Shown: positions 3,772 through 26,438 of the stretch, one piece after another | How positions within the stretch are numbered: position 1 is the first letter of the stretch | Layout: each line of letters opens with the position of its first letter | Origin: a virus | DNA: 33,906 nt | Reading direction: 5' to 3' (one strand) | Virus record (IMG/VR): IMGVR_UViG_3300046167_000968 | Coordinates: 1 to 33,906 of that record | The notes under the pieces: model-generated | Databases searched by the model: none | Told to the model about the DNA's origin: nothing | The model's input: only the letters and a program-made list of their open reading frames with translations | Translations under genes and position numbers: made by a program

Positions 3772-5182
3772 GAAGATAGATTTCGGCTCTCATCAGTTCA
3801 AGCTGATCGTATACAGATAGGAGGTTCATTTTGGTGAAGACTTTGCGTGGCAGTGCTGCGTTCATATGCGAAGCTCCGCTGTTGAACCATGGCCCGCGTC
3901 CGTTGAAGCTACTTTTACGTGCACGTTCGGGGCGAAGCCCGAGCTGCACCAGTTTCTTGTAACGCGTGCGTGGACGTTTCCACTGTCGCCAGATCACACA
4001 CCGCAAGCGATGGCGTAGCCATTCGTCCAGTTCACGGGCGAAGGTTTTCGTCTGGCTCAGGCGGAAGTAGTTCGTCCATCCGCGCAGCACCGGGTTGAGC
4101 GTTTCTTGGATGAAGCGTTGCACGTTGCGCCCCCGTCCCTTGCGGAACAGTTGCTTGAGCTTCGATTTCATCTTTTGAGCGCTCTTAGCCGGGACTCGAA
4201 TACGCGGTTTCTTTCCACTGGTGAAGCTGTAGCCGAGGAAGACTCGACGATTGGGGCGATCCACCGCACTTTTGAGATGGTTCACCTTCAGCTTCAGTTT
4301 GTTTTCCAGATAAGTGGTGATGGACGCGAGCACGCGCTCGCCGCTGCGTTGAGTGGCAACGTAGATGTTGCAATCGTCAGCGTAACGGCAGAAGCAATGT
4401 CCACGCCGCTCCAGCTCCTTATCCAGGTCGTCCAATATTATATTGGACAGTAGTGGTGACAATGGGCCGCCTTGTGGCGTCCCTTTGTCCGTTGGTTCAG
4501 TTTGCCCGTTGATCATCACTCCGGCGTTCAGCCAAGAGCGGATCAGTTTGAGCATCGCTTTGTCTTTCACATGGCGACGCACTCGCGCCATCAGTAGGTC
4601 GTGGTTCACTTCGTCGAAGAAGCTCTTCAAGTCCAGATCCACTACCCAGTTTTTGCCTTCACTCTGATACTTTTGCGCCTGCGTTATCGCCTCGCCTGCG
4701 CTACGTCCGGGACGGAACCCGTAACTGTGAGCGCTGAAGTGAGGTTCAAACAAGGGGCTGAGTATCTGTAACGCCGCTTGTTGCAGCACACGGTCGAGGA
4801 TCGTCGGGACGCCCAGCTTGCGGATTCCGCCGCCAGGTTTCTTGATTTCCACACGCTTAACCGCGTCGGGACGATACGTCCCAGCGATCAATTGCGCTTC
4901 GATCGTTCCCAGGTGTGTGTTTAGATACGCCAGTGTGGCGTCCATATCACGTCCATCGATCCCTGCGCTGCCGCCATTGCGACGCACTTTCTTCCACGCG
5001 GCTTTTAGATTGCCGCGTTCGGTCATCTGTTCGATCAGGTTTTCTCTTTGAGCAACGCGGTTTTCTTCGTCCGATGGTGGAGTTGATACACCCATACGAG
5101 CCCGCCCCGGATTCCGTCCGGTTCTTCCCGAGTGGGCCTGACGAATGTTGTCGTCAGCTTCTGTATCCCTGTCCGTTCTCAT
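3752..5182 (-). CDS. ltrA: Group II intron reverse transcriptase/maturase
   Basis: The 476-aa protein has fingers-palm motifs in order: RKLGVPTILDRVLQQA (121-136), HSYGFRPGRSA (152-162), VVDLDLKSFFD (180-190) with the first catalytic aspartates, TPQGGPLSPLLSNI (235-248) and the active site YADD (267-270). The GIIM maturase domain follows (LNPVLRGWTNYFR, about 350 onward). There is no HNH endonuclease domain, as usual for class C introns, which use single-stranded targets near terminators. The start at 5182 is the longest choice; an internal Met at residue 30 (5095) is equally possible because homology begins near VSTPPSDEEN. The reading frame is intact. Confidence 0.95.
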   Translation of the reverse strand: MRTDRDTEADDNIRQAHSGRTGRNPGRARMGVSTPPSDEENRVAQRENLIEQMTERGNLKAAWKKVRRNGGSAGIDGRDMDATLAYLNTHLGTIEAQLIAGTYRPDAVKRVEIKKPGGGIRKLGVPTILDRVLQQAALQILSPLFEPHFSAHSYGFRPGRSAGEAITQAQKYQSEGKNWVVDLDLKSFFDEVNHDLLMARVRRHVKDKAMLKLIRSWLNAGVMINGQTEPTDKGTPQGGPLSPLLSNIILDDLDKELERRGHCFCRYADDCNIYVATQRSGERVLASITTYLENKLKLKVNHLKSAVDRPNRRVFLGYSFTSGKKPRIRVPAKSAQKMKSKLKQLFRKGRGRNVQRFIQETLNPVLRGWTNYFRLSQTKTFARELDEWLRHRLRCVIWRQWKRPRTRYKKLVQLGLRPERARKSSFNGRGPWFNSGASHMNAALPRKVFTKMNLLSVYDQLELMRAEIYLRNRRDT

Positions 5183-5615
5183 GGTCGCAGGCCTTGTTGT
5201 CGGTCTTCGGTTCGATCCTTCATCCGCGATCGAAACGGACTACTATGATCTCGGCTGACTTCTCCACCTTCCATCGTGATGCATCTCTGCAACACTAGTC
5301 CCTCGCGAGACAGAAGAGGAGACCTCCCCGGGTAATGCGCACCTGCCTTCACACTTATGCCTGCCGCATATACAACCACGCCTTCTGTGCAAGTTTTGGA
5401 CTTTAGAGTTCTGTGCCCCCTCATCCAACGTGACTGCCTAGTATACGGTTCCTGTTCGTCAGGCCAGTGTTTTGCCATAAGCTTCCTCCCCACGCACACC
5501 TCACGATGACGCAGTTGCCTTTCGGCTAACTCTTCCCCTTGCCGGGTGAGTAACAGACTTTTATCAGTTTTCATAATAATCACTGTCAAGCAGGTGCGCC
5601 CTGCCGGGCGCGCAC

Positions 5616-5643
5616 AAAAAAGGCCCTGACTAGCAGGGCCTTT
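5616..5643 (-). terminator. Intrinsic terminator, target of the group IIC intron
   Basis: On the minus strand GGCCCTG, a five-base loop and CAGGGCC are followed by TTTTTT. It ends the transcript of the two small secreted paralogues. The intron begins at the first base after the T-run. Confidence 0.85.
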
Positions 5644-5770
5644 CACGGGAATTCACTGAGTTTGACTGTCAGTTAATGGCGGATCGCTGATGGGAAAGTG
5701 GGAAGGTCAAAAAGTGGCAATGTGAATCTGACGGTGAGGTTTGGATACGGAGAGGCGCTTCGCTTGGACC

Positions 5771-7871: not shown

Positions 7872-9281
7872 CTAATCAGTGTCCCATCTCTCTGACATTT
7901 TTTCCCACTCGTGATGGTAAATCCGATATAATTTTTTTATGTCTTCTGCTCGACTGGAGCTTAGATTACCAGATCTGCCCGAAACAAACCATTCATATTT
8001 CCAAGGCTGGCTCAGTTCCCGCCAGCGCGCCCCATTAGGTCGAAATGCAACCTCAATATAATCGATAAAACCTTCCAACGATCTGCTTCGTGCGACTGAA
8101 TCCCCCTTCCTTACTGCGGCCGAAAAATCTTTTTCACATTTCCTGTATGCACGCCAAATCCCAGAATCATTGGTCATAAGGTTTTCATCAGTGATTAACG
8201 TACCAGGCTGGTAGTTAGAATCAACCAGTGACGCTATGGCTAATAAAGAATTCATATGGTCGTAGATACGCTCCTTTTCATCCTTCCAAATATGCCAGAC
8301 CAGCGGTTCCCAATTCGACATTTCAATGGTATCTAGGCGAGTGGCATAAGCTCTGATGTCATCTTTGATGGGATTCGTGAGTTTTTCACGAGCAAGTTTA
8401 GTAAACCTATCGTTCGGCACTATTTCGGCCTTCGTTAAAACGCCGATAACTTCACCAGATACCGCGTCAAAAACAGGTCCTCCACTGTTCCCCGAGAATG
8501 CACTGCAGTCCAATTCAAGGAGTTTAGAGCCGATGCCGTCAAGTGTGCCCTCTGATTTACGAAGAACACCACCGCCTAGTGGGTAGCCAAGTAAATAGAT
8601 GGCATCCTTAGGCCGTACCTTTGAAACATCATCACTCACTCTCAAGAATTTCAGCTTCGAATTTTCTTTGAGTTTAAACACACATATATCACGATCTTGA
8701 ACTATATACGCATTACTCAATTCAACAGACACGTTATCCCGTGTCCTTACAGAAATATCAGTTAAAGCATTAGCAGCTTCGATGACGTGTATGTTAGTCA
8801 CTAGGAACTTCACGCCTTTGATCTCACACAGAAACCCTGAGCCAGAAGCCCCCCAAGACGTCGTACTTAATTCATTATTGCTGCTGGGGTGAACTTCTAC
8901 GAGGCATACTGATTCACGATGATCCAAATCCGTAGATTTATCGACAATCTTTGTCGCGCTTTCATTCTTATGAATTACGACATACTGATTCATCGTCACA
9001 TAATGATAATTAGTACCAGATAGCAGTACATTCAGAAGTAGGTCTAAGGTTACATTGCTAAGTGACAGAGACACCTTCTCATTCATATTTAGAGGGTCCT
9101 CGAGCAAAATTAAAAACTCGGGATGACCTTCGCTTTGACTAGAATGTATCTTATTGATTCGATCAACTGCCTCAACTAGTGACACACCCTCGAGCTTGAG
9201 ATCGTCAAAAAAGGGCTGCTTAAAATCAATAGCATTCAGGGTTGCACACAGTGCTAAGAATAAAACAAGGACAGACTTCAT
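7872..9281 (-). CDS. Secreted trypsin-like serine protease with N-terminal STN-like domain
   Basis: This 469-aa protein starts with a signal peptide (MKSVLVLFLALCATLNA). Residues 28-105 resemble a secretin/TonB short N-terminal (STN) fold: LEGVSLVEAVDRINK, then LSLSNVTLDLLLNVLL and a YVVIH strand. Residues 125-290 are a chymotrypsin-fold protease of the HtrA/S1 kind with the complete triad: His165 (VTNIHVIE), Asp198 (DRDICVFKL) and Ser266 (SGNSGGPVFD). No PDZ domain follows; the last 170 residues are helical and unassigned. It probably cleaves proteins in the periplasm or outside. It lies between two near-identical hairpin repeats, directly after the capsid gene, and is AT-richer than the head genes, so it looks like an exchangeable cargo gene. 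Confidence 0.88.
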   Translation of the reverse strand: MKSVLVLFLALCATLNAIDFKQPFFDDLKLEGVSLVEAVDRINKIHSSQSEGHPEFLILLEDPLNMNEKVSLSLSNVTLDLLLNVLLSGTNYHYVTMNQYVVIHKNESATKIVDKSTDLDHRESVCLVEVHPSSNNELSTTSWGASGSGFLCEIKGVKFLVTNIHVIEAANALTDISVRTRDNVSVELSNAYIVQDRDICVFKLKENSKLKFLRVSDDVSKVRPKDAIYLLGYPLGGGVLRKSEGTLDGIGSKLLELDCSAFSGNSGGPVFDAVSGEVIGVLTKAEIVPNDRFTKLAREKLTNPIKDDIRAYATRLDTIEMSNWEPLVWHIWKDEKERIYDHMNSLLAIASLVDSNYQPGTLITDENLMTNDSGIWRAYRKCEKDFSAAVRKGDSVARSRSLEGFIDYIEVAFRPNGARWRELSQPWKYEWFVSGRSGNLSSSRAEDIKKLYRIYHHEWEKMSERWDTD

Positions 9282-12447: not shown

Positions 12448-12548
12448 GGGTCCGAGATTCGAGTCTCGGGATGCGGGATGCGAGGGGTGCGTTTCACTGG
12501 GTTTAACTGCGTTTCACGAAACGCTGAAAAACTGAAATCGGAAACGGA

Positions 12549-12595: not shown

Positions 12596-13162
12596 CTAAT
12601 CCAGTTCAATCCAGTCGCCATCCTTGAATACTCTAGCACTCCATCGAACATGCACATCACCCTGTGACTTAAACCCAAGAATCAGAAGAAAACTACTCTC
12701 TTTTGAAATCACCTTAGCTTTACCAGACTGCTCAATAATTCCTGAAAGTTTAGATAGCTCAGGTTCAACCCTATCGTTATGTGGAGGTGGGTAAGTTATA
12801 AGCACACGAAGATCACAATCGAGAAGCAGGAGGTGCCCGACTTCTTTATACAGGCCAGAGAAGAACACATTTTCATGCTCAATCGCAACTCGTGCACGAC
12901 AAAGCCAAGTTTCACTCAGGGGAGCACAATCGAGGATTTTGTCGGCTTTAGGATCAAAGATTATGGCATCCATCGAATAGTATTCGCTATAATGCTTCAA
13001 ACTGAGTGACTCCGCGACATCTGCGATGACTGAATCTTTGTAACCTAAGACTGCTTGGGTGTATGACTTAGCTATATTCCAAACATTAATGAGTTCAGAG
13101 TTTTTAGACCGAACAGACTTTAACCACGCTTCAAAAAAAGCCTTTGAGGATACTCGTTGCAT
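12596..13162 (-). CDS. Unknown 188-aa cargo protein, possibly PD-(D/E)XK-like
   Basis: This soluble protein without a leader is AT-richer than its neighbours. Blocks YYSMDAIIFDPKADKIL, CRARVAIEHENVF and HLLLLDCDLRVLITYPPP alternate strands and helices in the order seen in restriction-endonuclease-like folds (first Asp, then an acidic E.E strand, then a hydrophobic strand). The usual lysine of PD-(D/E)XK is not in place, so nuclease activity is doubtful. It occupies the gap between the gpF remnant and the protease gene, where the gpF-like protein should be, and is followed by a dispersed 3' element. The start at 13162 is the only good one. The function is unknown. Confidence 0.55.
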   Translation of the reverse strand: MQRVSSKAFFEAWLKSVRSKNSELINVWNIAKSYTQAVLGYKDSVIADVAESLSLKHYSEYYSMDAIIFDPKADKILDCAPLSETWLCRARVAIEHENVFFSGLYKEVGHLLLLDCDLRVLITYPPPHNDRVEPELSKLSGIIEQSGKAKVISKESSFLLILGFKSQGDVHVRWSARVFKDGDWIELD

Positions 13163-13201: not shown

Positions 13202-13430
13202 CTATTCAGACTTTCTCACCCGCACGCTAATCTCACAGTCGCAGTTGTGGTGGATCGGTGGCGGGGTTGACCAGCCGCCTGGATAGGTGGTGCCGTTAAG
13301 GGGATTGCAGGACGGGCAGTCGCCGCCTGACCAGACTAGGTCGTGGGTCTTCAGGTCAGTGGTTGCCAGGAGGTCGGCGAAGTCGAATGGCGGCTTGGGC
13401 TTTTCTTGCGTTGAAGGAGGCTGTGCTCTC
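13202..13430 (-). pseudogene. C-terminal remnant of Mu gpF-like head morphogenesis protein
   Basis: A minus-strand frame ending in TAG at 13202-13204 reads PPFDFADLLATTDLKTHDL, WSGGDCPSCNPLNGTTY, GGWSTPPPIHHNCDCEIS. The CxxC...PP.HHNC.C pattern is the hallmark of the C-terminal zinc-binding end of gpF/SPP1-gp7-type minor head proteins. The N-terminal two thirds are missing; upstream lies the decayed portal copy 2. So the element once carried the portal-gpF-protease order of Mu. The remnant is directly followed by the cargo gene at 12596-13162, suggesting that cargo insertion or a deletion removed the gene. Confidence 0.7.
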
Positions 13431-13474
13431 GCTTGCGCCGTGAACGCAAGCGGAGGTATGAAGGTGGGAAGGTG

Positions 13475-14800
13475 TTAAAGTTTGAAGGTCTTTAGCGGAC
13501 GACGCGGAGGTCGTCCCTCCCGATGATGCCGATGCGGATGTCGTCCCTCCCGGGGTGAAGAGGTCCTCCTTTGGGCCGGGGGCTGGGACTTTGTGGCGGT
13601 CGTAGAGCCATTGCTTACTGACTGGCAGGCCCATTTCTTGGAAGAGTAGATTTGTCGCGCTGGACCATTTGGTGGTCCTTCTCGGGGCGGTCGAGTTCGA
13701 CTTCTAGGAACGGGAGTTCTTCGGAGTTGCCCCAATTCAGCTCGATGAGGCTGGGGATGAATTGGTTGTTGATGACCGTCGATCACGTAGGCGGCGTAGT
13801 TCTCGTAGAGATCGAGTTCGACTTCGCGGTGGACGTTGCCGAGGGCATAGGAGCCGCTTTTGCCCTCTTCGCTGGTGAGGGTCTGGCCGAGGAAAAGCAG
13901 ATCGCAGGCGCGGTCGGCGATGGACATGAGGCGCTCGGTGGGCTCGGACTTGCCGGCGACGCCGGGTGTGCTGCCGTTGAGGATTTGTAATTCCGTGCCT
14001 TGTGGGAATGCGCCCCAGGCTGCGGTGCCCATGTTGCGGAGCATGTCGGAAATCTGGTCGATCTGTGTCTGCGGGGCGCTGGGATCGTAGGTGGCCCAAC
14101 GGATCGGGAGACCGAAGAGTTCGGCCTTATGCGTCATCCACTCCCAACCGAGCATGCGCCCGAGCCAGAGATGTGCGAGGGCGCGGAGCTGGGCGGTCTC
14201 GGCGATGTGGCCGGACTTGGCGCGGTAGACGCCGACTAGGAATTTGTGGGGGTATTTTTCAAACCGCTTTGGGCTATTCGGATCCCGGTCGGGAAACAAG
14301 CGCAAAGCATTTGAGTTTGAAGGTGGGAAAGTTTGAAGGTGGGAAGGTGTTTCGAAGCCGAGGCAGGTCCACGGAACACGGCGGGTGCCGGTGGGGAAGT
14401 ATTTGCCGTCTTCAATGGTCCAATCGATTTCGAGGACGGAGACGCCACGGGCTACGGCGTCGAGTAGTTCATAGAGGGTGGCTTGGAAATTGTGCTGCCC
14501 TTCCCAGGTGGCAGGCCTTCTGGTTGTGGAGGACGTGTTCGACGAAGGCGGCCTTTTCGAGGGCGGCGGCTGACGGCTCCCTGCCCTTCTCCGTCCAGGG
14601 CTGGAGATTGAACGGGAGTTTGCAGACCGCCTTCTTGATCTTGTTCAGGTTGGAGCGGAGGCGCTCCCAGGTGTCCTCCATCGTGTTGAACAGCTCGTTC
14701 TGGAGCATGAGGTTGCCGCGGCCGCCCTCGTCGAGGATCCAGCCGAGGCGTGTCGGGATCGAAGTCGACCGGGATCGGGGAGAAGTTGCGAATCCTTAGT
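13475..14800 (-). pseudogene. Portal protein copy 2 (DUF935-type), multiply frameshifted
   Basis: The DNA matches portal copy 1 (19482-20834) closely over most of its length, but at least four single-base shifts break it: near 14745 (extra base), around 14505, near 13775 (AAYVID then GHQQP instead of VVNNQ) and near 13652 (extra base in AAATCTACTC). The longest remaining frame covers the LGRMLGWEWMTHKAELFGLPIRWA core. A GAAGGTGGGAAAG repeat lies inside it at 14310-14350, at the same place as a related repeat in copy 1, and REP copies lie at its 3' end. It cannot make a full portal protein. Confidence 0.85.
13494..13551. repeat. REP-type palindrome, copy 2, with a half copy
   Basis: GCGGACGACGCGGAGG is followed by TCGTCCCTCCC, then a degenerate second unit at 13530-13551 (GATGCGGATGTCGTCCCTCC). 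It is translated as part of the 3' end of portal copy 2. Confidence 0.65.
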
Positions 14801-14876
14801 ATGTGAGGCGGATGACCGTGCGTGTCGGAGGCATGCGCTGAAGTCTCACACGGAGACAGCACGACACGGAGGGTAG

Positions 14877-14895
14877 AATTTAACTGGGTTTCACT
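14877..14895. repeat. 19-nt cargo-end repeat, copy 1
   Basis: AATTTAACTGGGTTTCACT lies 16 nt past the stop of the 797-aa cargo gene. An identical copy lies at 21011-21029, just past the other large secreted cargo gene. Confidence 0.7.
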
Positions 14896-14910
14896 GTGAG
14901 CGTGAAGCCC

Positions 14911-17304
14911 CTAATTAGTCTCAGCTGTAATTTTGAAAAATTGAATATCAGGATTCACAGGATTGAGCTTCACATCAAGAGAGCCGCTATCAACTCCCAC
15001 ATCTTCAGCTTGTAAAGTATTAACATCCCAAGTTTCCAAGTCGTCGGAAGTAAGCAAGTTCATCTTCAGATTAAAATCCCCGTTTTCTGCTCGTTGGATC
15101 ACAGGCGAGCCCAATGCGAGGTCGCGCATTTGGTCCGCGGTATAGCCATCCCCTAGTTCCTGCTCTGACACCATAGCCCGCAGACGTGCCCATGCAGCAG
15201 ACGAATCAACATCTGGGTCGAATCCGAAAGGCGCGAGATACGCTTCAACTGGATCAGAAATGCCATCACTGTCGGAATCGGGGCCATTGGGATCTGCCGT
15301 CACATTAAGAGAGGCATTCGCAGATAGCGTATCACCAAAAGAGTTGGATACCCTACAGCTATAATCTGCTTCATCGAAATAGCCGACACCATTAAGAATC
15401 AAGACACTAGAAGTTTGGCCTTCCAATTCTTCGCCGTTCTTGAGCCATTGATAAAGGTAGGGCTGAGGGCCACTTGCAGAAACAGCGAATACCGCTGATG
15501 CTCCTGCAGTTGAACTAGCATTTGATGGATTGGTAAGCATAGATGGTGCCACACCCGTGTATACAATCGAGAATGTGACTGACACATCATCCGCTGCTTC
15601 ATAGTCATCACTACCTGCTTGGCTCGCAGTAAGGACAGCAAGGCCCACACCAGTAAGATAAACAGTATTATCTATCACTGTCACTGGACCAGATTCAACT
15701 GCTACCGTTACGGGAAGACCTGAACTAGAGATGGCATCTGCGGGGAAAGGCAAGGCCCCGAGAACCTGAGCACCTGGATTGTTGAATGTTATCGTTTGAG
15801 ACGTGTTCGCAATCTCGAAAGTAACTTGAGCATCGCCCGTCCCGCCCGAATTAGTTGCCGAAATAGTCACAATGAATGTTCCCGATTCAGAAGGCGTTCC
15901 GACGATTTTTGGCGCGCCAGAGGATGTGTCGAGCGACAAGCCTTGCGGTAGATCCGCTGCACTGTAACTAGTCGGATCGTTAGTGGCAGTTATGATGTAT
16001 TCGAGAGGGACTTGAACCTCACCGCTAACGGTCGTCGAACTCGTAACTGAAGGGGGGGTGTTAATGAAAGGGCTGCCATCGGCATTATAAACTGCCAAAT
16101 AAAAGTCATTAGAAGACGTTGATAACTGGACAACTCGAGAACTTCCGTAAACAGCTAGGTCGGAGGTAAAGACATTAGTTTCAATATCCCCTCCGACACC
16201 GAACGAGGTGATTTTGCTGCCAGATGAGTTTACCTTGCTCAAGGTAGTCCCACAAGAGACATATAGGGAATTATCGGGCATCCATTCAACAACTCCCTTA
16301 AAGTCATCTAAATCGTAAAGGAAGGTATTAGTTCTATCCCGTATAGTTTTGAGTGCGTGAAAGGTATCGTTGATATAAAAGCCTACATCGTATATGGAGT
16401 TGTAACCCCTAGACGGATACCAATTACCGTAAGAAAAGAAAAAAGCTTTGTCTCCTAAACTACTAACACTTATATCTTTTGAAAAATATTGTAATCGGTG
16501 ACTCTCGCCTTGTCCTTGGATCACTACGAACGAATGCGTCTCCGTGATAGCGTCAGATTGAGAGCCATTCGAATACGAGTAAGTTCCAGAATATACCTTA
16601 GAAGTCGAACCGGTCCAAACCCCCAATTCAGTGTAATTAAATATTGTGTCATACCAAGAATCGTCGAAGGCAAAGCCATAAGCTGCAGTTATTGTATCTG
16701 CGCTATTGCCATGAGCAGATAAGTCTCTGAACCCATCACCATCAAAGTTAGTATCTAAAGAACCATTCGATTTGTATCTATGTATGGATGGAGCACCTTT
16801 CCCTTCGAGGACGAAGATTTCACCGGCAGCACCAATAAGCAACTGATATCCTTCGTTGTTAGCACCTTTGTAATCGGTTCTAATCTTGCCTCCACCGGCG
16901 AAGGAAGGGTCGAGACTTCCGTTACTATTAAGGCGGACCAGCGCAACATCAGTTGTAGATGAATTGTATGTAGTTCCTACAATCAGAATCTTCCCATCCG
17001 ACAAGACCTCCAAGTCATTCGCGATACTCCAACCAAGAGGATATTGCACCTTAGCTACACCACCCGTCCCGAAGGAATTATCTAGAGTGCCATTGGCATT
17101 GTAGCGAACAACAACCATATCGTTGTCTGACTGCCCCGCGGCAAGAACTTTGCCGTCAGGTTGTACAACTACGACATTCGCAGTCTCAACTCCCCCGAGA
17201 TCGGTCTGGACAACACCTCCCGTCCCCCAGCCACTAGCGTTGGATATACTCGATAGAGTAAACAAACACGCTATAAAACATAAAATCAAATTTCGGTATT
17301 TCAT
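14911..17304 (-). CDS. Large secreted beta-propeller/Ig-like repeat protein with calcium motif
   Basis: The start at 17304 gives a signal peptide (MKYRNLILCFIACLFTLSS) and overlaps the upstream stop as ATGA, which decides it over 17343; the length is 797 aa. The N-terminal third has delta-60-type propeller repeats (QPDGKVLAAG...VVRYNANGTLDNSFG, LSDGKILIVG...LVRLNSNGSLDPSFA). Next come putative Ig-like domains (LPQGLSLDTSSGAPKIVGTP; an MBG-like segment) and an Ig domain (YQWLKNGEELEGQTSS...DEADYSCRVSN). A calcium motif follows (DSDSDGISDPVEAY), then a C-terminal module FGFDPDVDSSAA...DLETW shared with the protein at 21032-22531. It is likely exported and adhesive. It lies between TerL copy 2 and portal copy 2 and is AT-richer than both. 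Confidence 0.82.
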   Translation of the reverse strand: MKYRNLILCFIACLFTLSSISNASGWGTGGVVQTDLGGVETANVVVVQPDGKVLAAGQSDNDMVVVRYNANGTLDNSFGTGGVAKVQYPLGWSIANDLEVLSDGKILIVGTTYNSSTTDVALVRLNSNGSLDPSFAGGGKIRTDYKGANNEGYQLLIGAAGEIFVLEGKGAPSIHRYKSNGSLDTNFDGDGFRDLSAHGNSADTITAAYGFAFDDSWYDTIFNYTELGVWTGSTSKVYSGTYSYSNGSQSDAITETHSFVVIQGQGESHRLQYFSKDISVSSLGDKAFFFSYGNWYPSRGYNSIYDVGFYINDTFHALKTIRDRTNTFLYDLDDFKGVVEWMPDNSLYVSCGTTLSKVNSSGSKITSFGVGGDIETNVFTSDLAVYGSSRVVQLSTSSNDFYLAVYNADGSPFINTPPSVTSSTTVSGEVQVPLEYIITATNDPTSYSAADLPQGLSLDTSSGAPKIVGTPSESGTFIVTISATNSGGTGDAQVTFEIANTSQTITFNNPGAQVLGALPFPADAISSSGLPVTVAVESGPVTVIDNTVYLTGVGLAVLTASQAGSDDYEAADDVSVTFSIVYTGVAPSMLTNPSNASSTAGASAVFAVSASGPQPYLYQWLKNGEELEGQTSSVLILNGVGYFDEADYSCRVSNSFGDTLSANASLNVTADPNGPDSDSDGISDPVEAYLAPFGFDPDVDSSAAWARLRAMVSEQELGDGYTADQMRDLALGSPVIQRAENGDFNLKMNLLTSDDLETWDVNTLQAEDVGVDSGSLDVKLNPVNPDIQFFKITAETN

Positions 17305-17933
17305 AAATTCTCGTTCTTTTGGTTGTTGAAAAATCTCACCCATTTTGAATTAGACAGTAAAGTGGTTCCATATACTGAAACCTTATCGTCGTCTACAGCA
17401 CATACATTGCGAATGTCATCTTTCACTTTGTTAATTGAAGAATCGCAGATCCAGGGGGAAATATAAATTCGATCTATCATATCACTGGTAAGATCCAGCG
17501 CGATATCATCATGCTCACTAATTACGCGAAACTCCCGTTCGTCCTGAAAGGGTAGTCGCTTGAGAAAAGGCCAAGAATCTGGCTCAGAATAATTTGAGAG
17601 TTGGTCAATCCTGATGTAATCTACAGCACGTCCAATTAGATTCTTTGCTTTAATCTGCTCGGTTATCGCTTCAGTTTTAAGGACGAAGCATAAGCCTTCC
17701 TTAGCATAAATGCTCCAGTGGTGATGTGTCTCGACAGCCTGCGTAAAGCAAACAACACCCAGAGACTTCTCATTAAGTCCACGAGCATGCTCGTAAGCCT
17801 TCAACGCTGATTCTTCACTTCGATCATCCCATCCGATGTAAGATCGAAAGGGGATTTCATTTGTTTCTAAGTATGCTAATCCCACATCTAAAGTGACGTA
17901 TCTCCTCAAATATTTACTTAACTCCACACTCAT
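17301..17933 (-). CDS. DUF2971-like protein
   Basis: This 210-aa soluble protein has GVVCFTQAVETHHHWSIYA and KEGLCFVLKTE, then VDYIR...FLKRLPFQDEREFRVI. This is the order of the conserved blocks in DUF2971 proteins: a strand, a W..YA helix, then a 'K...W..E.E.R' block. The biochemical role of that family is not established. Its stop overlaps the ATG of the large secreted gene by 4 nt (ATGA), so the two are translationally coupled and were probably acquired together. An AT-rich leader with a promoter-like sequence precedes it, suggesting expression independent of the head operon. Confidence 0.6.
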   Translation of the reverse strand: MSVELSKYLRRYVTLDVGLAYLETNEIPFRSYIGWDDRSEESALKAYEHARGLNEKSLGVVCFTQAVETHHHWSIYAKEGLCFVLKTEAITEQIKAKNLIGRAVDYIRIDQLSNYSEPDSWPFLKRLPFQDEREFRVISEHDDIALDLTSDMIDRIYISPWICDSSINKVKDDIRNVCAVDDDKVSVYGTTLLSNSKWVRFFNNQKNENL

Positions 17934-17943
17934 TTATATTAAT

Positions 17944-17970
17944 GTTCTATTTAGTAATCCTAACTGTCAA
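17944..17970 (-). promoter_or_regulatory. Possible promoter of the DUF2971/secreted-protein cargo pair
   Basis: On the minus strand TTGACA (17970-17965) and TAGAAC (17949-17944) are 15 nt apart, just before the ATG at 17933, in an A/T-rich leader with an upstream run of T (about 17980-17990). The -35 is perfect, but the -10 and spacing are poor. Confidence 0.3.
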
Positions 17971-18007
17971 ACGCAAAAAAAAAACAAAATATAAAGTAGG
18001 CTTATTA

Positions 18008-18128
18008 CCGCCAAACCTTAGCAAACCGTGTTCTCATCGGCCGATGCCCTAAGGAATTTTGAAGAGTGAGTAGTGAGTGGTGAATTAGCGCCAAGCCCTC
18101 GAAAATCGTGTTCGCATGAGTCGGTGAG
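18008..18128. repeat. Pair of 41-nt repeats after TerL copy 2
   Basis: Two related units (GCGCCAAGCCCTCGAAAATC... at 18088 and CCGCCAAACCTTAGCAAACC... at 18008) start 80 nt apart. The first begins immediately past the TerL stop in map terms and encodes the tail MRTRFSRAWR. The same arrangement follows TerL copy 1. Confidence 0.7.
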
Positions 18129-19425
18129 CGCGTTTGTTCGCCCCAGCGAGTGCTGGTGAATTTTGACTCAGCCCCATACCTTCGGGGCATTTCTCGGCGG
18201 CGTGCAGGGCTAAGGCCAGTGCGGTGGCGCGGTCGGCGTGGCCGTCTCTGGTGCGTGCGGCGATGAATTTGACCAGGCCCTGCGGAGTGACGATGCGCTG
18301 GATGCTGCCGAGGTCGTCGCGGAGTTGTTGGCTGTTCGGAATGCGGACCGTCTGACTTTGGAAGGCTTTCTTGGCGCGGCTGAACAGTTCGCGCTTGCGA
18401 TCGTTGGTGAAGTTGACGGCGTCGAGCTTGTAGTCCCCTAGCCGCTTGGCCAAGTGCTCGGAAATGGGACCGCCCATGCCCGTCGAATCGATCGCGATGT
18501 AACGGGCGCGAGCGACACGTTCGGCGAGGATCGCTTCTTGTTCTGGGAACGGCGTGTTCTCGAGGACGAGGATTTCCCGAGTCCATAGGATGCCCCCTAC
18601 CCGCTCCAAGGTCCAGGCGACGGTGAGGTCTTTGCGGCGGCCAATGTCGATGCCGACAAATAGCGGATTGGGCGTGCGTGTTTCATAGGGACCGAAGGAT
18701 GCGGCGGGATCTTCGACGGTGCGGATGAGTTCGATGGGAAACACCTGGGCGGCGTGCTCCATGAACGCGCATTCAAACTCTTGCGCCCAGCCATCAGGGT
18801 CAGCGAGGTTGGTCTTGAGTTCGTCAATGTCCAGGCCGAGGCCTTGTTCGACGGCGTCGTACACCGAGGTCTTGTGGCGCTTGAAATCGGGGGCTTCGTT
18901 CCACAGCTCGTAGAACTTGTTGTTCATGCCCGCAGGTGTGGAAATGACGCGGAGCTTTAGCTGTCCGCGCAGCGGATTGGTGATGATCGGATAGACGGCC
19001 CGCCAGATTTCTTCGGGGTTTTCATGGAAGGCAAATTCGTCGAGCACGAGGTTGGCCGAGTAGCCACGGGCGGTGGAGGCGTTGGCTGGCAGTGCTAGAA
19101 TGCGGGCGCCATTGGGAAAGCGAATTTGCGAGGCCTTGGTTTCGGGGATGAAGGGCTGGCCGGTCTCGTGCTCGACTGCCTGTGCAAAAATGCGGGCGAC
19201 GCGATGCACCTTCTCCATGAATTCGAGGGCCTGGCGTTCGCCGGCGGAGAGGATGATCCAGTCGGCTCCGTGGTGGATGGCGTCGGCGACGACTTCGAAG
19301 GAGGCCGCGAGGGAGCCGCCGATCTGGCGCGACTTTAACCAGATCTTGAAGCGTGAGTCGTCCAGCACCCACTGCCGTTGATACGGGAGGAGCAGGTCGT
19401 AGGGGGATGGTTTTGCCTTTGGCAA
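18085..19425 (-). CDS. Terminase large subunit, copy 2 (intact)
   Basis: This 446-aa packaging motor has a Walker-A-like KSRQIGGS (31-38), Walker B LVLDEF (126-131) and coupling motif ISTPAG (161-166). The RuvC-like nuclease has all acidic positions: D260 (FVGIDIGRRKD), D313 (IAIDSTGMGG) and the last motif RDGHADRATALA (D394, D398). It resembles Mu gp28-type terminases. It translocates DNA into the prohead at the portal and cuts it. It follows portal copy 1 by 57 nt, the reverse of the usual order, because the TerL-portal block is duplicated. The last 25 residues (SQNSPALAGANKRAHRLMRTRF) come from a dispersed repeat. This copy is the one likely to be functional. Confidence 0.92.
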   Translation of the reverse strand: MPKAKPSPYDLLLPYQRQWVLDDSRFKIWLKSRQIGGSLAASFEVVADAIHHGADWIILSAGERQALEFMEKVHRVARIFAQAVEHETGQPFIPETKASQIRFPNGARILALPANASTARGYSANLVLDEFAFHENPEEIWRAVYPIITNPLRGQLKLRVISTPAGMNNKFYELWNEAPDFKRHKTSVYDAVEQGLGLDIDELKTNLADPDGWAQEFECAFMEHAAQVFPIELIRTVEDPAASFGPYETRTPNPLFVGIDIGRRKDLTVAWTLERVGGILWTREILVLENTPFPEQEAILAERVARARYIAIDSTGMGGPISEHLAKRLGDYKLDAVNFTNDRKRELFSRAKKAFQSQTVRIPNSQQLRDDLGSIQRIVTPQGLVKFIAARTRDGHADRATALALALHAAEKCPEGMGLSQNSPALAGANKRAHRLMRTRFSRAWR

Positions 19426-19481
19426 AAGTGGGAAGGTTTGAAGGTGGGAAAGTTTGAAAGTTAAGACACTGAAAGCTGAAA

Positions 19482-20834
19482 CTATTCAGATGCGGACGAC
19501 GCGGAGGTCGTCCCTCCCTGAGGTGGGGAGTTTTTATTGGCCGGGGTGAAGAGGTCCTCACTCGGGCCGGGGGCTGGGACTTTGTGGCGGTCGTAGAGCC
19601 ATTGCTTGCTGACGGGCAGGCCCATTTCTTGGAAGAGTAATTTGTCGCGCTGGACCATTTGGTGGTCCTTCTCGGGGCGGTCGAGTTCGACTTCTAGGAA
19701 CGGGAGTTCTTCGGAGTTGCCCCAGTTCAATTCAATGATGCTTGGGATCAACTGATTGTTGACCACGTCGATCACGTAGGCGGCGTAGTTCTCGTAGAGA
19801 TCGAGTTCGACTTCGCGGTGGACGTTGCCGAGGGCATAGGAGCCGCTTTTGCCCTCTTCGCTGGTCAGGGTCTGGCCGAGGAAGAGGAGATCGCAGGCGC
19901 GGTCGGCGATGGACATGAGGCGCTCGGTGGGCTCGGACTTGCCGGCGACGCCGGGTGTGCTGCCGTTGAGAATTTGTAATTCCGTGCCTTGTGGGAATGC
20001 GCCCCAGGCGGCGGTGCCCATGTTGCGGAGCATGTCGGAAATCTGGTCGATCTGGGTCTGCGGGGCGCTGGGATCGTAAGTGGCCCAACGGATCGGGAGG
20101 CCGAAGAGTTCGGCCTTATGCGTCATCCACTCCCAACCAAGCATGCGGCCGAGCCAGAGATGTGCGAGGGCGCGGAGCTGGGCGGTCTCGGCGATGTGGC
20201 CGGACTTGGCGCGGTAGACGCCGACTAGGAATTTGTGGGGATACTTTTCAAAGCGCTTTGGGCTGTTCGGATCCCGGTCGGGAAACAAACGCAAGGCGTT
20301 TGGGTTTGAATGTGGGGAGGTGGGAAAGTGGGAACGTTGAATGTGAGAAGGTAGCTCGAAGCCTAAGCAGGTCCACGGGACGCGGCGGGTGCCGGCGGGG
20401 ACGTATTTGCCGTCTTCAATCGTCCAATCGATTTCGAGGACGGAGACACCGCGGGCGACGGCGTCGAGCAGCTCGTAGATGGTGGCATGGAAATTGTGCT
20501 GCCCTTCCCAAGTGGCGGCCTTCTGGTTGTGGAGGACGTGTTCGACGAAGGCGGCCTTTTCGAGGGCGGCGGCGGACGGCTCCCTGCCCTTCTCGGTCCA
20601 GGGCTGGAGATTGAACGGGAGTTTGCAGACCGCCTTCTTGATCTTGTTCAGGTTGGAGCGCAGGCGTTCCCAAGTGTCCTCCATCGTGTTGAACAGCTCG
20701 TTCTGGAGCATGAGGTTGCCGCGACCGCCTTCGTCGAGAATCCAACCGAGCGTCTCGGGATCGAAGTCGACCGGGATGGGCGACAGTTGGTTGTCGCGAG
20801 GGTGTGGCTTAATAATTCTTCGAGCGGGATTCAT
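19482..20834 (-). CDS. Portal protein, copy 1 (DUF935/Mu gp29-like)
   Basis: This 450-aa portal-like protein has the DUF935 core LFNTMEDTWERLRSNL, FVEHVLHNQKAATWEG, AVARGVSVLEIDWT, LAHLWLGRMLGWEWMTHKA, FGLPIRWATYD and FLGQTLTSEEGKSGSYALG. It forms the ring through which DNA enters the head. Two oddities: at about residues 164-180 an in-frame piece (LPSHIQRSHFPTSPHSNP) is a translated dispersed repeat, and the C-terminus (about residue 430 on) ends in a translated REP palindrome (QGGTTSASSASE), making it shorter than Mu gp29. Portal copy 2 carries related insertions at the same places, so they predate the duplication or were copied with it. The frame is otherwise intact. Confidence 0.85.
   Translation of the reverse strand: MNPARRIIKPHPRDNQLSPIPVDFDPETLGWILDEGGRGNLMLQNELFNTMEDTWERLRSNLNKIKKAVCKLPFNLQPWTEKGREPSAAALEKAAFVEHVLHNQKAATWEGQHNFHATIYELLDAVARGVSVLEIDWTIEDGKYVPAGTRRVPWTCLGFELPSHIQRSHFPTSPHSNPNALRLFPDRDPNSPKRFEKYPHKFLVGVYRAKSGHIAETAQLRALAHLWLGRMLGWEWMTHKAELFGLPIRWATYDPSAPQTQIDQISDMLRNMGTAAWGAFPQGTELQILNGSTPGVAGKSEPTERLMSIADRACDLLFLGQTLTSEEGKSGSYALGNVHREVELDLYENYAAYVIDVVNNQLIPSIIELNWGNSEELPFLEVELDRPEKDHQMVQRDKLLFQEMGLPVSKQWLYDRHKVPAPGPSEDLFTPANKNSPPQGGTTSASSASE
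19490..19518. repeat. REP-type palindrome, copy 3
   Basis: GATGCGGACGACGCGGAGG is followed by TCGTCCCTCC. The hairpin arms are GACGAC/GTCGTC. It is translated as the last residues of portal copy 1. Confidence 0.65.
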
Positions 20835-20843
20835 GGAATATTA

Positions 20844-20925
20844 ACCGCAGAGCGCGCTGAGGCTGGGAGAACTGAACCTGATTTTTTAACCACAGATGGA
20901 CACGGATGGACACAGATAGAGGTGA
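20844..20925. repeat. Dispersed ACCGCAGAG / ACCACAGATGGACACGG repeats
   Basis: TTAACCGCAGAGCGCGC and, 40 nt on, TTAACCACAGATGGACACGG with a second GGATGGACACAGATAGA lie just upstream of portal copy 1. From general knowledge, such words are common intergenic repeats in Verrucomicrobiota and Planctomycetota. Confidence 0.5.
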
Positions 20926-20944
20926 GCCTTTTTCACTGTATACG

Positions 20945-20972
20945 AAAAAGGCCACGCGGATGAGACGTGGCC
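20945..20972 (-). terminator. Intrinsic terminator after the 499-aa cargo gene
   Basis: On the minus strand the stem GGCCACG/CGTGGCC is followed by TTTTT. It shares the TACGAAAAAG context with the terminator at 7796-7822 and should isolate the cargo transcript from portal copy 1. Confidence 0.8.
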
Positions 20973-21010
20973 TGATGATTAGCGCAGAAGCGCAGAATAG
21001 CAGAGGGAAG

Positions 21011-21029
21011 AATTTAACTGGGTTTCACT
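21011..21029. repeat. 19-nt cargo-end repeat, copy 2
   Basis: It is identical to 14877-14895 and lies 3 nt past the stop of the 499-aa secreted cargo gene. Confidence 0.7.
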
Positions 21030-21031
21030 AA

Positions 21032-22531
21032 TTATTCAGGCTTCCTGACGCGAATGAACTTCTTTGTGCCTGATGTATCAAGCGAATGGGTGATCGTATC
21101 AACCGTTGTCCAATCTGAAAGATCTTCGGATTCTTCTATCATAAACTCGAATGAGAATCCACCGCCAGCGCTAGGAGTCAGACTGACTCCACCCAAGCTA
21201 AGTCCCTGCCTCTGTGCATCGGTGAGCACACCAGGTAGCTCTGCTGCTGCTTGTTGAAACTCCAATAGTCGAGCCGCTGACGATACATTGGGATCGAATC
21301 CGAACGTGGCTTGCCTTACTTCGATAGCGTCCAGAATGGAATCACCATCTGAATCAGCATTGTTTGGATTAGTTCCAGTATCAGTTTCACTGACATAGAT
21401 GCCCGTATTAGTCTCGACGGAATCATCAAGCCCATCTCCATCGCGATCAGAAACAACAACAAAATTCTTAAAAGTATTTTCACCGGGGCTAATTGCCACG
21501 TTGTCACTCTCCGCTCCAAGTGAAACCCCGATTGGATCACCATTAATGTAAGATGGTAACTCTGCTACTGAAGACGTGCGTAAATCTATATACTGATTAC
21601 CATCGTAACTATAGGCGCTAGTAAGCTCAGCTGCAGTTGAATCATAGGATAAACGAATGTGAACCGCCTCTACTGGCGAATAAGGAATCGAGTAATCATC
21701 AGCTGCGAGGCTTGAGTCGACTTCGATTCGTTTAACACCATTGTGGTCCTGTAACTTAATTTCTAGGAAATCTGAGTCGTCGTAGATAGTAGCCGCAGTT
21801 GTGAGTAACTGCATCCATATCACGGCCTGGTTAATTGCTTCAATATCACCATCCGTATCAACGCGGGTGCCTCCATCAACTACGTTTACCGAATTAAGCA
21901 TGATGACAGAAATCGTCCAGTCATTTTCCCAACTGAGAGAGTTGATTTCACCAGAATTTGTTACCCACAATGCGTTAACAATACCCCAGGGACTAGAACC
22001 TGACGCGATTACATCGATTTGCTGTGCTGAGAATTCAAGACTCAGGTCACTCGAACTCACACCCTCATTACTCAGCCAAAAACTAGATGTATCTAAAGAG
22101 GCCACACCTAGTTGCTTATGCTTATACTTCGGAAGGATTCCAACATCGATCTGCTCGCCATCTGGCGTTCCGTCGTAATCTAGATCCCATGAAGCATCAT
22201 AAGTTACGAACTCGCCCGAGCCTCCTTCACTGAAAACGAATGTGCCCGTATCGGTGCCCGTGTAGGTATAGTCAAAATGCTCGGCGAAGGTGCTGTCGGT
22301 GAGTCGGCCCGTTCCACTGTTCCATGTGTAGTCGTTTGCTGATCGCTCCTCACTATCTAAAAAAATCAGCTGTGAGCTGGTTTTGTAATAGTGGTATTGA
22401 ACTCCGTAGTTTGGTGCAGAATCACCATCCAAATAAGAAACTCGAATCTTACCTGTAAGATCAGCTGGTTGGGCCGATGTAGTGATAAGTGATAGTAAGA
22501 ATATCGAGGCGAGAGAGCTGAATTTGATCAT
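21032..22531 (-). CDS. Secreted calcium-repeat protein (cargo)
   Basis: This 499-aa protein starts with a signal peptide (MIKFSSLASIFLLSLITTSAQ). The N-terminal region is Tyr/Ser/Asp-rich and beta-like (IRVSYLDGDSAPNYGVQYHYYKTSS). A middle part (about 150-350) reads like a concanavalin-type sugar-binding fold (DFLEIKLQDHNGVKRIEV, HIRLSYDSTAAELTSAYSYD), though this is a weak call. Two thrombospondin-3 motifs follow (DRDGDGLDDSVE, DSDGDSILDAIE), then the C-terminal module FGFDPNVSSAARLLEFQQ...SEDLSDWTTV that also ends the protein at 14911-17304. It lies between TerL copy 1 and portal copy 1, has its own terminator and is AT-richer than its neighbours. It probably acts at the cell surface. Confidence 0.8.
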   Translation of the reverse strand: MIKFSSLASIFLLSLITTSAQPADLTGKIRVSYLDGDSAPNYGVQYHYYKTSSQLIFLDSEERSANDYTWNSGTGRLTDSTFAEHFDYTYTGTDTGTFVFSEGGSGEFVTYDASWDLDYDGTPDGEQIDVGILPKYKHKQLGVASLDTSSFWLSNEGVSSSDLSLEFSAQQIDVIASGSSPWGIVNALWVTNSGEINSLSWENDWTISVIMLNSVNVVDGGTRVDTDGDIEAINQAVIWMQLLTTAATIYDDSDFLEIKLQDHNGVKRIEVDSSLAADDYSIPYSPVEAVHIRLSYDSTAAELTSAYSYDGNQYIDLRTSSVAELPSYINGDPIGVSLGAESDNVAISPGENTFKNFVVVSDRDGDGLDDSVETNTGIYVSETDTGTNPNNADSDGDSILDAIEVRQATFGFDPNVSSAARLLEFQQAAAELPGVLTDAQRQGLSLGGVSLTPSAGGGFSFEFMIEESEDLSDWTTVDTITHSLDTSGTKKFIRVRKPE

Positions 22532-22583
22532 CTAAACACTCGTAATGGTTAGACATAGATTAGACAAGGTTTTAAGAAGATTG

Positions 22584-22704
22584 TCGCCAAGTCTGCGAAA
22601 ACCTCGTCAGCATAGGTCGATGCCCCAAGGAATAGTGAAGAGTGAGCTGTGAAGTGTGAATTACCTCCAAGCCTGAGCGAATCGCGTTCGCATTGGTCGG
22701 TGAG
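22584..22704. repeat. Pair of 41-nt repeats after TerL copy 1
   Basis: The units at 22664 and 22584 again start 80 nt apart and resemble those at 18088 and 18008 (CCAAGCC...GCGAATC.CGTTCGCAT..GTCGGTGAGC). They mark the right end of each cargo slot. Confidence 0.7.
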
Positions 22705-24007
22705 CACGTATGTTCGCTCCTACTAGTGCTGGTGAATTTTGACTCAGTCCCCATACCCTCCGGGAGCTTCTCAGCAGCATGGAGCGCCAGGGCCAGAGCC
22801 GTCGCCCGATCGGCGTGGCCGTCTCGGGTGCGTGCGGCGATGAACTTGACCAAGCCCTGCGGTGTGACGATGCGCTGGATGCTGGCGAGATCGTCGCGGA
22901 GTTTTGCCGCTGGGTGGGATCCTCGACTTTCTGACTTTGGAAAGCCTTCTTGGCGCGGCTGAACAGTTCGCGCTTGCGGTCGTTGGTGAAGTTGACGGCT
23001 TCGAGCTTGTAGTCCCCCAGCCTCTTGGCGAGATGTTCGGAGACCGGGCCGCCGATGCCGGTGGCGTCGATCGCGACGTAACGGGCGCTGGCCACGCGGT
23101 CGGCGAGGATGGCTTCCTGCTCGGGGAACGGGATGTTATCGAGGACGGTGATCTCGCGGGTGATGTAGGTGCTGGCGACGCGCTCCAGGGTCCATGCGAC
23201 GGTGAGGTCCTTGCGGCGGCCGATATCAATGCCGACGAAAAGCGGGTTGGGCGTGCGGGTCTCGTACGGGCCGAAGGATGCGGCGGGGTCTTCGACCGAG
23301 CGGATCAGGCTCATGGGGAAGACCTGTGCGGCGTGCTCCATGAACTGGCACTCGAACTCCTGGGCCCAGCCATCGGGGTCGGCGAGGTTGGCTTTGAGCT
23401 CGTCGATGTTGAGACGGAGGCCCTGCTCGACGGCGTCGTACACGCTGGTTTTGTGGCGTTTGAAATCGGGCGCCTCGTTCCACAGCTCGTAGAATTTGTT
23501 GTTCATCCCGGCGGGGGTGGAGATGACGCGGAGCTTGAGCTTGCCCCTTAACGGGTTGGTGATGATCGGATAGACCGCCCGCCAGATTTCTTCGGGGTTT
23601 TCGTGGAAGGCGAATTCGTCGAGTACGAGATTGGCCGAGTAGCCGCGGGCGGTGGAGGCATTGGCCGGCAGTGCCAGGATGCGGGCGCCGTTTGGGAAGC
23701 GGATTTGTGAGGCTTTGGTTTCGGGAATGAAAGGTTGCCCGGTCTCGTGTTCGACGGCTTGTGCAAAGATCCGTGCGACGCGGTGCACCTTTTCCATAAA
23801 TTCGAGGGCTTGCCGTTCGCCCGCAGACAGGATGATCCAGTCGGATCCCGTGGCGATCGCGTCGGCGACGACTTCGAAGGAGGCCGCGAGGGAGCCGCCG
23901 ATCTGGCGCGACTTGAGCCAGATCTTGAAGCGTGAGGAATCGGCCACCCATTCGCGTTGATATGGGAGGAGCAGGTCGTAGGGACTGGGGGCGTTCGCGT
24001 TGCTCAC
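22661..24007 (-). pseudogene. Terminase large subunit, copy 1, with two compensating frameshifts
   Basis: The 448-aa frame matches TerL copy 2 to about residue 368, including KSRQIGGS, LVLDEF, ISTPAG, FVGIDIGRRKD and IAIDATGIGG. One base change in length near 22901 shifts the frame, and an extra base near 22748 restores it, so about 50 residues (SATISPASSASSHRRAWSSS...) are foreign. The lost stretch contains the last nuclease motif (RDGHADRATALA), which the DNA still encodes in another frame. The ATPase half should fold, but the nuclease should be dead. It is either a decayed duplicate or a retained motor without cleavage; sequencing error is also possible. It follows the small terminase by 33 nt, the ancestral position. 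Confidence 0.75.
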
Positions 24008-24040
24008 AAAGATCAGAAGTCAGAGGACAGAAGCCAGAGA

Positions 24041-24610
24041 TCAGACATTGGCTGATGTGGAGGGCGCGGAGGTCATCCCTCCCGTTGGATCGGGGGCGGC
24101 ACCTAGTTGGACGCGCCAATCGGCTAGGACTTCGGCTTCGGATTTGTTGGTGATGCTGACGTTGGTTTGGACCAGTGCCTGGGGCTTGTCCGCGAAGACT
24201 TCGGGCTTCAGACTTTTGAGCATGAAGATCAAGCAGGCGTCGGAGTAGCGGCGTTTGTCGCCACAGTGGTTGCCCTTGATATCGAAGACAGGCTCGTCCC
24301 AGCCATCGACCCCTCGGCGGTGGAGCTCGGCTTCGGCGGACTCGATCCGTTTGGCGTTGCGGACTTTGTCACGTTGATACTGCGTATCTTTGAACCGGTG
24401 GGCCAGCTCGGGGCGCTTGGTGAGTTCCAAATAGAACAGACTTTTGCTGATCCCCTCTTTCTCGATGGCGGGATGGGTGTCGCTGCCGTGTAGTAGGTTT
24501 TTCACTACACGCTCGAACAGGGCCGTGGAGAACTTGCGCTTGGTGGCTAGGACGGAGGCTTTCTTAGAGGGCTGAGACTTGAGGGCTGAGACTTGAGAGG
24601 GCTGAGGCAT
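24041..24610 (-). CDS. Terminase small subunit-like protein
   Basis: The start at 24610 (MPQPSQVSALK) gives 189 aa; 24646 is possible but adds little. The pattern RKFSTALFERVVKNLLHGSD...AIEKEGISKSLFYLELTKRPELAHRF and RIESAEAELHRRGVDGWDEPVFDIKG, then YSDACLIFMLKSLKPEVF fits phage small terminases: an HTH-like segment, an oligomerisation helix and a C-terminal portal/TerL contact. It recognises the packaging start site. The N-terminal QVSALKSQPSK comes from tandem GGCTGAGACTTGAG repeats, and the C-terminal GGMTSAPS from a degenerate REP copy, so both ends have been rewritten by repeats. TerL copy 1 follows. Confidence 0.75.
   Translation of the reverse strand: MPQPSQVSALKSQPSKKASVLATKRKFSTALFERVVKNLLHGSDTHPAIEKEGISKSLFYLELTKRPELAHRFKDTQYQRDKVRNAKRIESAEAELHRRGVDGWDEPVFDIKGNHCGDKRRYSDACLIFMLKSLKPEVFADKPQALVQTNVSITNKSEAEVLADWRVQLGAAPDPTGGMTSAPSTSANV
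24053..24083. repeat. REP-type palindrome, degenerate copy 4
   Basis: GATGTGGAGGGCGCGGAGG is followed by TCATCCCTCCC. It is related to the copies at 10771, 13494 and 19490 and is translated at the end of the small terminase. Confidence 0.5.
24570..24606. repeat. Tandem GGCTGAGACTTGAG repeat
   Basis: Two full 14-bp units and a partial third lie in the first codons of the small terminase, where the packaging site could also lie. Confidence 0.55.
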
Positions 24611-25339
24611 GGCCCAATTGTGACTTGGGCTTGCTCGGGCAAACAAGGTGCAGGGTTCACTGCGAGTGACTGGGTTTCACCATTTAGGCGCGGGCGTGGA
24701 CCGACTGGACAAATAAAAAACGCGTGTAAGCGGAGCGGGGAACGGGCTTGGGTGAGCGCTTCGCGCTTGGTTGAAGGTTGGAAGGTGGGTGACGCTTCGC
24801 GGACATGGCCGGTCGCGGCCTCAGAGCGACAGTGGCCATTGGAACGAAGTGATGCGTCTAAGCTGAATGGGTTGCTGGTTGTGTGTTGTTCGTTGATTGA
24901 CCCGCTCGGGCTAGGCGTGCGGAATGGGTGAGCTTGCGAATAGGTTAGTTGATGACGCCCGTAGGGCTGGATGGGGCGCGGAGCGCCCTCTCCTGCGCTG
25001 AGTATGCGCGGTCTGCCGCGCTACGCGGAGCGGGCGAAAGCGCGGGGCCACCGCGCAGGGCGGCGGGGGGAAGGCCCCCTTTCTCCCCTGGGGGCCGCCT
25101 GGCGCTGCGGGGACGGCGATGGGAGGAACGACCTTGAGCGGGCTGCGTGCATGGACCGTCGCGAGGGGTGTCCATATTGAAGACCGTCGAGGGCGGGGGT
25201 TGGGGGGCAGACTGTAGCCCCCGAGCAGAGCGAGACGACCTCAGGGAGTGCAGGGGCGTGGCAGTGTGCTGGTTGATGCGGGTAACTAAGCGCCGGGCGT
25301 GGCGGCGCAACGGGTGGTGCTACGGGGAGATGGAGCGAC

Positions 25340-26063: not shown

Positions 26064-26149
26064 GAATCCTCGAAGGGAGGAACGAGCGCACGAGGTTGAG
26101 CGGCGGGAATCCTCGAAGGGAGGAACGAGCGCACGAGGTTGAGCGGCGG
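26064..26149. repeat. 43-bp tandem duplication
   Basis: Two exact copies begin at 26064 and 26107 (GAATCCTCGAAGGGAGG ... GAGCGGCGG). Confidence 0.9.
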
Positions 26150-26438
26150 GAATCGGCGCAGCGGATGAGGGCACTGTGGCGGCAGTGGGCACGGGTGGCG
26201 TGCAGGTGGGAGTGACCGGAGCGGTGCATCCGCAGGAAGCCTAGGCGACCGGAGGCTGGTCCGCGGAGGGAACGGCGTTGCGGCGTTGGTGGGAGGTGTC
26301 GATTGGAGACTCGGTAGCAGGTGCGCTGCGTTGGGAGCCTAAGCGACTAAAGCGGTGCTCCTGCGGGTGGATTGAGAGGCGGTTGGGACGTTTAGCGGAG
26401 CGGAGGCGGCCCGGCTGTGCTGGCGGAGGATCTGCTTT

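Follow-up and report, generated by a model that had tools for sequence, protein, structure and literature searches.

The window analysed here is the whole 33.9-kb IMG/VR virus record IMGVR_UViG_3300046167_000968 (positions 1-33,906), and its subject is a tandem pair of large terminase (TerL) and portal genes with interposed cargo. On the minus strand the genes run in the order small terminase, TerL1, cargo A, portal1, TerL2, cargo B1, cargo B2, portal2, a 188-aa open reading frame (ORF), a Mu I-like protease and the major head protein (Table 1). Domain searches found the TerL family PF03237 and the Mu-type portal family PF06074 twice each, in agreement with the gene order, strand and coordinates of the original prediction. 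Self-BLAST aligned the two portals at 92% DNA identity over 1302 bp (13495-14781 against 19492-20783) and the two TerLs at 83% over 1402 bp (18009-19404 against 22585-23983), and chance was rejected as the source of a likeness of 83-92% that extends beyond 1.3 kb. The portals are more alike in DNA than the TerLs, as had been claimed (113 mismatches in 1333 positions for the portals, 237 in 1341 for the TerLs; p=2e-12), and the portal1-TerL2 junction is indeed free of cargo, with a gap of 56 nt rather than 57. What had been called a gpF remnant behind portal2 is more aptly regarded as the C-terminal portion of the portal ORF, which in single-unit relatives is one ORF of 525-564 aa. The portal ORFs of the related loci L003, L004, L010, L013, L043, L047 and L055 likewise continue into a C-terminal tail that has Cys/His motifs and looks like the minor head protein MuF, a likeness seen by eye, for which Pfam gave no match.

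Table 1 Features of the tandem TerL-portal region, in order of transcription (coordinates are those of the window)
Feature	Position	Strand	Evidence and remarks
Decamer-repeat box (GTGAAACCCA GTCACTCGCA GTGAAC) before small terminase	24655..24680	-	Position weight matrix (PWM) score 14.6; 34 nt before start
Small terminase	24041..24646	-	phrog_4044, E=2e-17; 3' end is a REP
REP at small-terminase 3' end	24059-24083	-	25 bp
TerL1	22661..24007	-	PF03237; open frame, about 53 codons scrambled
Second TerL 3' tail (scar) upstream of cargo A	22584..22626	-	Closest to native TerL tail of L003 (83%)
Cargo A	21032..22531	-	499 aa, putative signal peptide, TSP3-like repeats; GC 45.7%, GC3 41%
Slot-closing box GTGAAACCCAGTTAAA before portal1	21013..21028	-	Sequence comparison, PWM scan
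Hairpin-plus-T-run terminator-like element between cargo A and portal1	20949..20973	-	Best of 16 sites; total not above shuffles
Portal1	19482..20834	-	PF06074, E=4e-69; 450 aa, frame intact, lacks the C-terminal ~100 aa of relatives
REP GGGAGGGACGACCTCCGCGTCGTCC at portal1/TerL2 joint (crossover site)	19494..19518	-	25 bp
TerL2	18085..19425	-	PF03237; intact
Second TerL 3' tail (scar) upstream of cargo B	18005..18049	-	Sequence comparison
Cargo B1	17301..17933	-	210 aa, DUF2971-like (below Pfam cut-off)
Cargo B2	14911..17343	-	810 aa, DUF5122/delta-60 repeats and immunoglobulin (Ig) domain
Slot-closing box GTGAAACCCAGTTAAA before portal2	14879..14894	-	Sequence comparison, PWM scan
Portal2 with C-terminal tail (MuF-like by eye)	13202..14800	-	Frame disrupted by some five +1 shifts
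Two REPs between portal2 body and C-terminal tail	13497..13551	-	13497-13521 exact; 13527-13551 degenerate
188-aa AT-rich ORF in second variable slot	12596..13162	-	Gap between portal tail and protease
Triple-decamer box	12492..12517	-	70 nt before protease

The element belongs to a phage clade of marine Puniceicoccaceae/Opitutia (Verrucomicrobiota), delimited by TerL identity of at least about 79%. In L004, L009, L037 and L047, the last a prophage in a metagenome-assembled genome (MAG), the TerL-portal junction is empty and the two genes overlap by ATGA. Elsewhere in the clade the same junction is filled with 0.6-3.3 kb of unrelated content: a 673-aa protein with FG-GAP/TSP3 repeats in L003, an 864-aa protein with BspA-type leucine-rich repeats in L006, small ORFs in L007, a 158-aa protein that looks HNH-like by eye in L008, a 511-aa homologue of cargo A in L010 (86%, cargo A thus occurring as a single unit), a 311-aa protein in L033, a 311-aa protein with an FGE-sulfatase domain and a PEP-CTERM-like end in L054, where the portal is lost, and four ORFs in L055. 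Among some 50 relatives outside the clade, tallied by hand, junction gaps stay below about 300 nt and hold no cargo. With different cargo in at least eight relatives and an empty junction in four records of the same clade, the cargo slot proposed by the original prediction is very likely real. Absence of cargo from relatives, which had been put forward as an argument against it, applies to some relatives only, and these display the empty state of the slot. We took the definitions of morons and hotspots from PMC4378225, PMC7067206 and PMC9122126. As in morons, the cargo stands between genes that are adjacent in relatives (ATGA junctions compared with filled ones) and deviates in composition, the GC content at third codon positions (GC3) being 39.8-41.4% as against 71-78% in the intact flanking head genes; as in hotspots of the P2/P4 type, defined as loci of 1-5 kb, turnover between the conserved genes is high. 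Of a promoter and terminator of their own, as morons have, the sequence gave a strong terminator-like hairpin behind cargo A and no promoter signal above chance.

The downstream edge of the slot is constant. The sequence AGTGAARCCCAGTTAAA, exact or with one base changed, precedes the portal in all cargo-bearing slots and is missing from the empty TerL-portal junctions. It lies 59-61 nt from the portal start in seven slots, 194 nt in portal1, 83 nt in portal2 and about 283 nt in L007. Related versions, typically of three 10-bp repeats (GTKAAACCCA), are found 69-70 nt before the protease in nearly all members and 34-101 nt before the small terminase. The version before the protease also closes a second variable slot, between portal tail and protease, in the window, L003, L006, L007, L010, L034 and L055; this second slot is empty in the same four phages in which the TerL-portal slot is empty. 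An exact scan of IMG/VR returned the box from contigs of this clade only, and a host-wide repeat was rejected as its origin, three host MAGs being nearly devoid of it outside phage loci. Another decamer-repeat box occurs in the window at about 5666 on the minus strand, just upstream of a 155-aa ORF (5179-5646).

Because of the fixed distance to start codons and the helical phasing of its repeats, the box is, as far as can be judged from sequence, likely a late-gene control element. It would allow the portal and the downstream head genes to be transcribed despite the cargo that separates them from TerL, and the cargo could then be swapped without loss of head expression. In phage Mu, several dispersed C-dependent late control sites serve one late region, one of them before the protease gene; dispersal and the site before the protease are alike here, whereas the box sequence is different and an activator only putative. 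Two observations weigh against such a role, namely that sigma-70 promoters show no excess (7 found, 7.5 expected) and that some loci have a terminator-like hairpin behind the box. The box could instead be a site of recombination or of terminase binding through which cargo insertion or DNA packaging is directed, and it does invariably stand where cargo ends on the downstream side, directly adjoins the stop codon in the family of cargo A, and is far better conserved in its two-decamer portal version than in its other copies. One copy also sits beside the small terminase, and cos/pac-type sites are often near that gene. Box versions, however, keep their place 69-70 nt before the protease even where the portal-protease gap is otherwise empty (L004, L009, L037, L047), the cargo is not accompanied by a recombinase gene, and 10-bp phased repeats at a fixed distance to start codons would be typical of activator sites, all of which makes a role in recombination or packaging unlikely.

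The upstream edge of the slot bears scars of cargo exchange. Behind each TerL of the window, a spacer is followed by a second TerL 3' tail, and it is this foreign tail of about 45-60 bp that accompanies the cargo and leaves the tail doubled. Among first tails, those of TerL1, TerL2 and L046 match one another best (75-79%); for the second tails the match is with native TerL tails from other phages, and within MAG G003 about 42 bp of the second tail of L046 recur without a difference in the native tail carried by contig C201. The same contig carries a homologue of cargo A (91%), the box and a portal start like that of portal2, and positions 5961-7578 of L010 align with tail, cargo A and box of the window as one block at 85%. 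Single-unit relatives therefore exist for cargo A, in L010 and, as tail, cargo, box and portal start, in contig C201; none was found in IMG/VR for cargo B. In L006 an extra fragment consisting of TerL tail, cargo, box and portal start lies upstream of the small terminase, and L035, 99.99% identical to L006, has the box and portal-start part of it. A search for a portal in MAG G003, which carries two units, found none. Because tail, cargo and box are shared as blocks, we infer that cargo is passed on with its flanking sequence, between phages able to reside in one genome. A lone portal N-terminal fragment in a host chromosome (L151:1471-1743), next to a PEP-CTERM-like gene and not far from a glutamyl-tRNA synthetase-like gene, is what is left of a phage or of a slot end that has moved.

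The joint between the two units coincides with a recurring sequence. A 25-bp repeat resembling repetitive extragenic palindromes (REP) lies in the same orientation at the small-terminase end, at the portal1-TerL2 joint and at the boundary between portal2 body and tail. Portal1 stops at this joint, and its last residues are a small-terminase C-terminus, GGTTSASSASE before the stop, compared with GGTTSVSSASE in the small terminase of L046; the spacer behind it resembles the spacers between small terminase and TerL in L003, L004 and L046. Therefore, a portal REP has recombined with a small-terminase REP. In the tree the portals are sisters (ultrafast bootstrap 97) and the TerLs are not. The block alignment suggested by the original prediction showed that divergence differs between TerLs and portals and is uneven along the latter (p=8e-16), amounting to 2-3% in some blocks, 9-12% in others and 30% over the first 100 bp; TerL2, for its part, is a mosaic, nearest to L046 at its ends and to L003 in its middle.

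Since the TerLs are not sisters and the portals are sisters with patchy divergence, two different units appear to have been joined rather than one cleanly duplicated. A simple tandem duplication followed by replacement of the cargo in one copy would account for the sister portals and for the same double-tail scar and homologous spacer behind both TerLs. It is nevertheless improbable, as the TerLs are not sisters, TerL2 is nearer to L003 and L046 than to TerL1, TerL and portal divergence differ, and the double tail is also present in L046, so that the scar predates the tandem. With slightly better than even confidence, we therefore favour a cargo (moron) slot in the late operon of temperate phages whose head genes are of the Mu type, a slot in which two different units became joined unequally in tandem. 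A cargo A unit and a cargo B unit from different phages would have crossed unequally at REP, small-terminase 3' end against portal body-tail boundary, and the portal core would have been converted later or earlier than the joining.

We consider it somewhat likelier that the tandem is a real molecule than that it is not, the main rival being a chimera formed at REP. In such an assembly, two strains of one sample, with single units carrying cargo A or cargo B, would have been joined by the assembler at the shared repeat. This fits a joint lying exactly within a multi-copy 25-bp repeat and two TerLs from different lineages, and it also bears on the condition of the genes. Portal1 and TerL2 are undisturbed in frame. 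Three inserted bases in TerL1, near 22910 (net +2) and 22755 (+1), scramble its reading, including the DGHADRATA motif, before the frame is restored, and all frame changes in TerL1 and portal2 are insertions, several resembling a pair of alternative bases that were both retained (GAC[G][C]CTC, AAA[T][C]TAC, GGGG[A][C]TG). Such pairs may hint at a consensus error over a mixed population and would count for a chimera. Because the single-copy protease and helicase are frameshifted too, as compared with relatives, as well as TerL1 and portal2, the element as assembled looks defective, and it contains no complete portal. A chimera would need a separate cause for the protease and helicase frameshifts; moreover, more than one slot unit per genome is also present in L006 and MAG G003, and a portal core at 97.5% identity fits conversion between copies in one genome. 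We regard the chimera as a serious possibility, though one to which we give distinctly less than even weight. Weighing further against the favoured explanation are the absence of the joint from any other IMG/VR record (the window's own record left out), the failure to find relatives of cargo B in IMG/VR, tree support that is weak apart from the portal pair, and the protease and helicase frameshifts themselves, which suggest a decayed prophage or a poor consensus. The predicted unequal recombination of two elements with different cargo thus gains from the non-sister TerLs, the sister mosaic portals and the REP-by-REP joint, and lacks a cargo B relative and a second record of the joint. Gene order and slot had been recognised and single-unit relatives suggested as a check; the second TerL tails, the joint's REP and the box ahead of either portal had been missed.

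Cargo A and cargo B2 have a C-terminal region in common. PADLOC returned a weak match of cargo B1 to the candidate defence family PDC-S31 and a partial STAND_TPR match for the L033 cargo; the other scanned cargo gave no match, and the content is not dominated by anti-phage genes as in P2/P4 hotspots. AlphaFold models (mean pLDDT 30 for cargo A and 38 for cargo B1) were too poor for fold searches. Most cargo appears to be exported, surface-type protein and would probably serve lysogenic conversion of the host surface. A trypsin-like gene behind the major head gene (7872-9281; GC3 41%) is probably further cargo, with a relative on the opposite strand in L003. At 436-2613, on the opposite strand, are an FGE-sulfatase-fold protein and a TSP3-repeat protein; in L010 and L041, FGE relatives are located behind the head genes. 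The window also holds a group II intron-type reverse transcriptase with maturase domain (RVT_1, GIIM; 3752-5182) and a 48-bp exact repeat pair between primase and small terminase (26064-26154).

The head module shares the Mu-type portal (PF06074) and the Mu I-like protease (PF10123) with Mu/B3-like phages, so that both marks of a Mu-like head are present, and its TerL is 26-42% identical to those of Mu, B3 and Alteromonadaceae phage B23; it differs in the extra C-terminal region of the portal ORF. No MuA/MuB transposition genes were found among the proteins scanned, a subset of the ORFs of a record that may be a fragment, and an integrase-like gene of L006 was recognised by eye, Pfam giving no match. 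Morons of lambdoid and Mu-like phages, such as the Mu-like phages of P. aeruginosa (PMC4378225), are likewise genes of deviant composition between genes adjacent in relatives, but there the variable regions have no recognisable common flanking sequence and acquisition is called mysterious, whereas here the boundaries are marked by a constant late-type box and a donor TerL tail. The hotspots of P2-like and P4-like phages (Rousset 2022, PMC9122126) are similarly small, rapid-turnover loci between two conserved genes; they lie next to cos, whereas the present slot lies within the packaging genes and holds mostly exported surface proteins, with the one weak defence-candidate match. Duplicated terminase or portal genes were also sought in the literature, without a relevant hit. 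The slot is thus of a known kind, moron or hotspot, and what is new is its constant, portable boundary, which is unusually clear.

Exchange would proceed by recombination between related co-resident prophages, at the TerL 3' end on one side and at the box and portal start on the other. Going further, we tentatively hypothesise, as a rather unlikely extension, that TerL tail and box-portal start are portable homology arms of a cassette-exchange platform between co-resident prophages, that REP crossovers build slot arrays holding several cargoes, and that each cassette brings its own late control element and so keeps the head genes expressed. How morons enter late operons without stopping the genes behind them is unexplained according to PMC4378225. 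In the present clade one slot, its boundaries constant, is seen empty, filled, scarred and in tandem, which makes acquisition and swapping directly testable, and the cargo suggests that phages drive changes in the surface proteins of marine Verrucomicrobiota.

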